This document shows, piece after piece, positions 1,081 through 49,434 of a stretch of 64,000 bases of DNA. The position numbers were made by a program, and so were the translations under genes. This DNA comes from Pardosa pseudoannulata (Eukaryota; Arthropoda; Arachnida; Araneae; Lycosidae): the NCBI GenBank assembly GCA_032207245.1, contig CM063504.1:17943951-18007950 (forward strand), read 5' to 3'. Position 1 is the first letter of the stretch. Each line of letters opens with the position of its first letter. The notes below the pieces were generated by a model. The model was not told the origin of the DNA and did no database searches. It saw nothing but the letters and a program-made list of their open reading frames with translations.

Positions 1081-1229
1081 CTGCAGTGAACTATGATCGG
1101 GGCATCATCATCTGGTTTGTAGCAACGTGTTTTTTTCAAATAATTTCCAAATGGTGTTGGATTTGAAGGAGCCCCATGATCTGGCCAAGATGTAAAATGA
1201 AACTGTTTTACTTCTCTTAATTCATCATC
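1081..1229 (-). CDS. Receptor PTP exon 21 of window: WPD loop and catalytic cysteine
   Basis: Encodes DDELREVKQFHFTSWPDHGA, a linker, then DDDAPIIVHC. The WPD loop carries the general-acid Asp; VHC is the start of the catalytic P-loop (VHCSAGxGRTG in the family). The exon ends inside the Ser codon after Cys, so the rest of the loop with the essential Arg is in an exon left of base 1. Both residues seen look catalytically competent. Acceptor ATTTTCAG, donor GTATTT. Confidence 0.92.

Positions 1230-49434: not shown

Follow-up and report, generated by a model that had tools for sequence, protein, structure and literature searches.

The 64,000-nt stretch of Pardosa pseudoannulata contig CM063504.1 analyzed here (the window) carries a gene that would encode most of an intact receptor tyrosine phosphatase (RPTP), with an extracellular Ig-Ig-EGF-EGF-EGF block homologous to the one found in Tie kinases, a reading to which we give a probability of about 0.85. 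Tie receptors are known as kinases, and the phosphatase that opposes them, VE-PTP, is a separate protein. What appears to be new is the Tie-type ectodomain on a receptor phosphatase and, with it, a wider pattern of one exterior combined with opposite enzymes. The conserved joining of a Tie-type outside to a phosphatase inside reopens the question of the origin of Tie and of the first role of its ectodomain. Database names follow the enzyme part (e.g., RPTP T-like) or are lacking, so the family is hidden, and no description of a Tie-ectodomain phosphatase or of sea-star kinase/phosphatase twins was found among the titles and abstract openings listed by an open-access library. PMC8662651 mentions Tie once, concerning introns.

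On the minus strand, from 49434 to 1081, 21 exons join in one frame of 922 codons with zero stops, with AG..GT borders at 21 of 21 exons, and the exon number, positions and domain order given by the original prediction proved right. The encoded order is Ig1, Ig2, EGF1, EGF2, EGF3, three FN3 domains, a transmembrane (TM) helix, a basic juxtamembrane stretch and PTP D1 up to the catalytic His-Cys. The proposed phase-1 domain borders were found as well: the nine introns entering Ig1, Ig2, EGF1, EGF2, EGF3, FN3-1, FN3-2, FN3-3 and TM are all phase 1, and a phase-0 intron splits each of the three FN3 domains. When 12 relatives were compared with the window by tblastn (E < 1e-3), all 82 HSPs fell on the minus strand. 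The domain search of the translation against Pfam recovered PF00102 (E 2e-52) and fn3 (E 5e-11), with Ig families unlisted and EGF families all below the cut-off. Both ends of the gene are missing from the window: D1 breaks off at VHC|S, leaving the CX5R loop and D2 outside. The signal peptide and the LCCL domain of the spider orthologs were sought in the window and not found (best E 0.076, un-LCCL-like), and the search there for the RPTP-type membrane-proximal domain of spiders gave nothing convincing.

Ig1 is divided between exons at 49291..49434 (phase 1 in, 1 out, AG..GT; Argiope P0001, 38%, E 1e-8) and 48891..49034 (Argiope P0001, E 0.016), the latter being where the alignment with Tie2 starts. 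Ig2, devoid of the Ig cysteines, lies at 46281..46544 (Oedothorax P0003, 48%, E 6e-17), and its predicted fold is nearest to that of Tie2. The three EGF exons are EGF1 at 44148..44279 (Caerostris P0121, 64%, E 3e-13), EGF2 with CLPSPYGCSCASGFAGLNC at 40408..40563, and EGF3 at 39993..40127 (spiders and ticks, E 0.04 to 0.7); EGF1 and EGF3 fall inside the Tie2 alignment. Both halves of FN3-1, at 37446..37579 (phase 1 in, 0 out; ticks P0005, E 7e-5, and P0006, E 4e-5) and 34395..34584 (tick P0005, E 3e-4), are covered by Pfam fn3. The first half of FN3-2, at 31104..31177, has an open frame, AG..GT borders and fitting phases and lies within a PDB fn3 match; the second, at 28062..28284, has an open frame and fitting phases with an acceptor score below 0. 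FN3-3 begins at 25137..25378 (Caerostris P0121, E 0.002; PDB fn3 match, E 0.001) and continues tentatively in exon 12 at 24952-24898, the least certain exon of the model, which is the top-scoring phase-compatible exon and by eye resembles the spider segment after YEIQL.

The TM helix is encoded at 23167..23263 by a hydrophobic run with fitting phase and a weak profile match to the spider TM region (E 0.025), and the basic juxtamembrane stretch at 22201..22256 (AG..GT, phase 2 to 1). The next exon, 18292..18452, holds further juxtamembrane sequence and the start of D1 (spiders, 44 to 51%, best E 3e-12; donor score below 0). D1 goes on through 14079..14166 (KNRYGNILP; spiders, 71%, E 2e-8 to 5e-7), 10650..10720 (spiders, 50 to 70% over a short match, E 0.03 to 0.3; acceptor score below 0), 8190..8226 (KYIATQ, assigned by motif and phases), 6029..6126 (DFWQMIWE; spiders, 49 to 63%, E 1e-7 to 1e-9) and 5018..5134 (KCEKYW; spiders, 53 to 63%, E 1e-9 to 1e-10). 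Exon 21, 1081..1229 (spiders, 50 to 62%, E about 1e-13), contains both WPDHG and the catalytic VHC and is cut at HC|S; a TM helix followed by such a D1 is the arrangement of a classical receptor tyrosine phosphatase. Across the model, five splice sites score below 0 in a crude matrix.

The model rests on genomic sequence, and exon 12 and the TM exon on weak matches, which would leave room for two neighboring same-strand genes, namely a Tie-like receptor with its last exons elsewhere and a separate phosphatase. Against this stand the phases, which fit across all 21 exons, the outcome of a search of the window for a kinase domain, which gave no match (best E 1.9), and the spider, tick and crab proteins that hold both halves. 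Spider proteins predicted by others join the ectodomain and PTP as the original prediction had done, and a single HSP with Trichonephila P0002 (36%, E 6e-174, obtained with a window model without exon 20) spans the ectodomain to PTP. We consider the two-gene arrangement highly improbable and dropped it.

We then compared the ectodomain with proteins of known structure. With Ig1 to EGF3 as the query, human Tie2 was found at E 2.3e-42 and the next protein in PDB at 2.7e-4, a gap of about 38 orders of magnitude. The EGF2 exon by itself also preferred Tie2 (E 2e-7; next PDB protein, 2e-3), and the statistical weight of the likeness sits in the EGF block, above all in EGF2. A search of about 5.8 billion proteins with Ig2-EGF3 gave 13 matches at E ≤ 1e-3 among 188 candidates, comprising 6 spider RPTPs, 6 vertebrate Tie1 kinases and 1 sea-star RPTP; the best Tie1 match, that of coelacanth, had E 2e-45 and 41% identity over 97%. 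The candidate step of these protein searches needs exact short words, and misses are expected, the 13 matches containing neither Tie2 nor any tick protein.

Could the likeness to Tie be merely that of generic EGF/Ig receptors? Ig1-Ig2 without the EGFs still placed Tie2 first in PDB, but at E 0.08, which is not significant. The Ig2 exon gave a predicted fold (pLDDT 88) for which Foldseek ranked Tie2 first and second in PDB (1.1e-5 and 1.6e-5), while Dscam (1.9e-5) came third and many further Ig domains followed closely. With an Acanthaster RPTP query, fish MEGF10, a generic multi-EGF protein, reached E 4e-38 and outscored the Tie-type members from crab and frog; the EGFs by themselves therefore lack full specificity. 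The window Ig2-EGF3 query, however, returned Tie1 and Tie-ectodomain RPTPs only, MEGF10 being absent among its 13 matches, and neither the gap in PDB nor the preference of the EGF2 exon fits a generic likeness. That explanation is largely refuted, and we dropped it as having a very small chance of being correct. On these comparisons the window ectodomain is of the Tie type rather than a generic EGF/FN3 assembly, and the closer affinity to Tie claimed for it holds in the PDB, Ig2-EGF3 and EGF2-exon searches; the FN3 part showed no special affinity to Tie when searched against PDB.

The window protein shares with Tie1 and Tie2 (TEK) the Ig-Ig-EGF1-3 block, the Cys-less Ig2 and the EGF2 signature. 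It differs from them in having a phosphatase (PF00102) and no kinase match where they have a kinase, and in the Ig3 that Tie1 and Tie2 carry between EGF3 and FN3: a search of the corresponding interval (39990-37582) turned up one weak un-Ig-like candidate only, and Ig3 was likewise absent from the spider and sea-star relatives as read by eye.

The kinship of the phosphatase half was examined next. Single-domain PDB chains matched D1 with 210 bits for PTPRT, 194 for PTPRK and PTPRM, 177 for PTPRA and 152 for VE-PTP. Two-domain chains, each matched in two stretches, gave 312 bits for PTPRS, 298 for PTPRA and 290 for LAR, in a listing that had no two-domain R2B (PTPRT-kind) chain among its matches. 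PTPRT and PTPRA relatives also scored alike in the whole-protein search (best 120 of 831 matches). PTPRT, PTPRK and PTPRM, which with PTPRU form R2B, are the best single-domain matches. R2B ectodomains are of the MAM-Ig-FN3 kind, MAM is unlisted for the window protein, and the PTPRT control P0034 has MAM and lacks the EGF block.

VE-PTP acts on Tie2 in vertebrates and is also a receptor phosphatase, but its likeness to the window gene is a functional analogy only. Orthology to VE-PTP (PTPRB) was considered and dropped on the basis of its 152 bits versus 210 for PTPRT and of the two PTP domains in most spider and tick relatives, and VE-PTP kinship of the window D1 is thus disfavored. According to PMC5336234, VE-PTP is of the R3 type, with FN3 repeats and a single PTP domain; unlike this FN3-only ectodomain with one PTP, the window has Ig and EGF domains, and most of its relatives have a second PTP.

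A tree of PTP D1 was built from 46 of 54 rows (P0008, P0009, P0011, P0012, P0018, P0042, P0055 and P0156 were dropped); it is unrooted and contains no LAR, R3, PTP69D or PTP99A rows. Here the window grouped with the spider RPTPs (support 98/89), the 17 echinoderm phosphatase domains formed one group (96/95), and the PTPRA rows, set as the outgroup, occupied one side of a branch (100/100). The union of arthropod and echinoderm Tie-ectodomain RPTPs was weakly supported (50/58).

The seven best whole-protein matches (best 120 of 831) were from spiders and ticks, and in spiders, ticks and one crab the Tie-type ectodomain and PTP occur within one predicted protein. The spider proteins read LCCL-Ig-Ig-EGF3-FN3-TM-PTP, mostly with a second PTP, and two PTP domains are present in most of the spider and tick relatives examined. 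D1 contains HCSAGIGRTG in 5 of 6 ectodomain-bearing spider proteins (the P0004 model is broken there) and in the crab, and HCSDGIGRTG and HCSGGIGRTG in two ticks; the D2 of P0001 is degenerate, with TCLDGVTAC. The spider, tick and crab relatives have an active-looking D1 and, where present, a degenerate D2. Of the two crab proteins retrieved with a sea-star query, one has a phosphatase and one does not; the predicted model of crab P0175 was poor (pLDDT 50) and was kept out of the fold search.

An invertebrate receptor with the enzyme activity opposite to that of Tie had been proposed. The combination is indeed present (Tie2, E 2e-42; PF00102, E 2e-52), but it is not unique: since ticks, a crab and echinoderms have the same combination in their predicted proteins, it is not a novelty of the window animal. 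The suggestion that a Tie-like kinase opposes it in the same animal gained no support, as no Tie-type kinase was found among the arthropod matches listed for the window-protein (best 120 of 831), Ig2-EGF3 and Acanthaster queries, all of them word-limited searches. The proposed tree of the ectodomain with Tie proteins, based on Ig2-EGF3 and 62 of 63 labeled rows (P0177, with Ig2 largely missing, was dropped, and fish MEGF10 P0174 was excluded), separated arthropods from deuterostomes by a branch (95/88), which is what a module already present in their common ancestor would give. The family is probably ancient: the ectodomain would date back to that ancestor and has been used with either enzyme. 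Two Tie-type Ig2-EGF3 blocks (profile, 219 and 190 bits) were seen in the amphioxus protein P0167 (Branchiostoma belcheri), for which no enzyme domain is listed.

In the working that we propose, the receptor would sit in the plasma membrane, its Ig2-EGF part would bind an extracellular protein, and D1 would remove phosphate from tyrosines. Where Tie kinases turn an outside signal into phosphorylation, the same kind of signal would in this receptor set or relieve dephosphorylation. In RPTPs D2 is a regulatory pseudo-domain, and the same role may be assumed for the D2 of this receptor. Our guess is that the ligand would be a protein with a fibrinogen domain. Tie2 residues F161, R167 and H168, which PMC3829167 reports to lie at the interface with angiopoietin, align with K, N and D in the window protein. 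Because of these replacements the ligand is probably not angiopoietin, and a ligand shared with a Tie-like kinase, as once suggested, is not indicated.

The same ectodomain could in principle belong to a catalytically dead receptor acting only as a ligand trap, considering that the catalytic loop is only partly covered by the window and that no enzyme is listed for crab P0175 and nine sea-star proteins, which all have the ectodomain. This seems very improbable to us in view of the 922 stop-free codons, the retained WPDHG and VHC, and the HC..GIGRTG loop kept in the relatives. Among the proteins with a Tie-type ectodomain and no listed enzyme domain, P0163, P0165, P0168 and P0170 (sea star) and P0175 (crab) are named tenascin-like, sidekick-like or uncharacterized; they are possible decoys or gene-model fragments.

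The Acanthaster RPTP query retrieved 49 proteins at E ≤ 1e-3 among 408 candidates: 42 counted as sea star (including P0159, which lacks an enzyme), 2 from brittle star, 2 from crab, 1 each from amphioxus and frog, and fish MEGF10. By their listed Pfam domains, the 42 sea-star proteins are 16 kinases, 17 phosphatases and 9 with neither. Sea-star kinases named Tie-1-like or angiopoietin-1 receptor-like in the databases and phosphatases named RPTP T-, mu- or kappa-like have the same Ig2-EGF3 block as the window, that of the window being 33 to 35% identical to those of P0129, P0130 and P0134, and kinase and phosphatase versions occur within one genome. Many sea-star proteins carry F5/8-type N-terminal domains, whereas LCCL is found there in spiders, a tick and the crab. 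When the kinase domain of P0134 was used as the query, Tie2 scored 284 bits, a 2311-residue receptor (matched in FN3 and kinase) 242, and RET and FGFR1 227; an EGFR chain matched in two stretches totaled more than Tie2. By these scores the P0134 kinase domain is of the Tie type. Kinase P0166 lacks the DFG motif.

We next asked how enzyme type is distributed over the ectodomain tree, using 33 of the 42 sea-star rows and leaving out the nine without an enzyme. Nine kinase/phosphatase changes were needed (8 to 11 in 200 bootstrap trees), and by our own count 7 of the 9 were forced by strongly supported branches. In 500 shuffles of the labels the mean was 11.3 changes (range, 7 to 16), so that ectodomain kinship says little about which enzyme is carried. 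For 6 of the 16 kinases, the nearest listed phosphatase had an ectodomain at least 83% identical; the top pair, P0164/P0160 of Asterias amurensis, reached 93.2%, and 5 of the 6 pairs, whose members lie on contigs of equal length, were taken as lying on the same contig. The enzymes behaved differently from the ectodomains: the sea-star kinase domains were separated by a branch from vertebrate Tie1, the sole outgroup. This mixing of ectodomains, with enzymes staying with their own kind, suggests exon exchange or gene conversion. The sea-star proteins come from automatic prediction of clustered genes, and chimeras may be among them; as far as predicted genes go, sea stars do oppose kinase and phosphatase on alike ectodomains. 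If both twins bind one ligand, one signal would drive phosphorylation and dephosphorylation via homologous receptors. Paired activating and inhibitory immune receptors likewise have alike outer parts, opposite signaling ends and clustered genes; in the sea-star twins the ends are enzymes, a kinase and a phosphatase, and the comparison is one of analogy only. In Patiria miniata, the kinase domains of P0145 and P0148 are identical and their Ig2-EGF3 blocks 88% so, which would fit gene conversion.

The RPTP-type membrane-proximal motif was present in 13 of 16 sea-star kinases and in 0 of 7 vertebrate Tie1 proteins. It was also found in 16 of the 27 Tie-ectodomain RPTPs other than the window protein, in 1 of 12 proteins without an enzyme, and, among five control RPTPs, in two of PTPRT type and one from oyster, with PTPRA and an abalone protein lacking it. 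PF23144 (Fn3_PTPRU) scored above the cut-off in both of the sea-star kinases P0130 and P0164, which were scanned, and in the RPTPs P0160 and P0034; in the same scan P0129 and spider P0003 gave no above-cut-off call. The motif in the sea-star kinases agrees with the mounting of a kinase on an RPTP chassis, although homogenization of the twins would lead to the same picture. Since the sea-star kinases often carry this RPTP-type domain, vertebrate Tie might itself derive from such a chassis.

The Tie-type ectodomain seems to be a module of ancient date that has been paired with opposite enzymes. Tentatively, and at somewhat short of even odds, we combine these results as follows: the ectodomain would be an ancient, interchangeable signal-reading module on opposite enzymes, of which arthropods kept the phosphatase and vertebrates the kinase; the sea-star twins would be held up to 93% alike within a species with their enzymes remaining separate lineages, as in paired immune receptors; and vertebrate Tie may stem from an RPTP chassis that gained a kinase. 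In a rather unlikely course of events, though one with several points in its favor, exon shuffling at phase-1 introns would have fused the ectodomain to PTP separately in arthropods and in echinoderms. The phase-1 domain borders, the differing N-terminal domains (LCCL in spiders, a tick and the crab; F5/8-type in sea stars), the arthropod-echinoderm PTP union at only 50/58 and the frequent enzyme swaps in sea stars would all agree with it, but the identical order Ig-Ig-EGF3-FN3-TM-PTP with no Ig3, read in both groups, and the RPTP-type membrane-proximal motif in members of both speak against it.

Two retroelements also lie in the window. At about 53200-57000 on the minus strand, 5′ of the first Ig exon, there is a degenerate Gypsy-like element with an RT/RNase H-like ORF (56096-56689) and an integrase-like ORF near 53500. 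The other Gypsy-like element, at 59053-63582 on the plus strand, has ORFs of 1207 and 301 aa in the same frame with one stop between them and carries a gag zinc knuckle and an integrase ahead of reverse transcriptase/RNase H; this integrase-first order is presumably the Copia-like order known from Gmr1-type elements.
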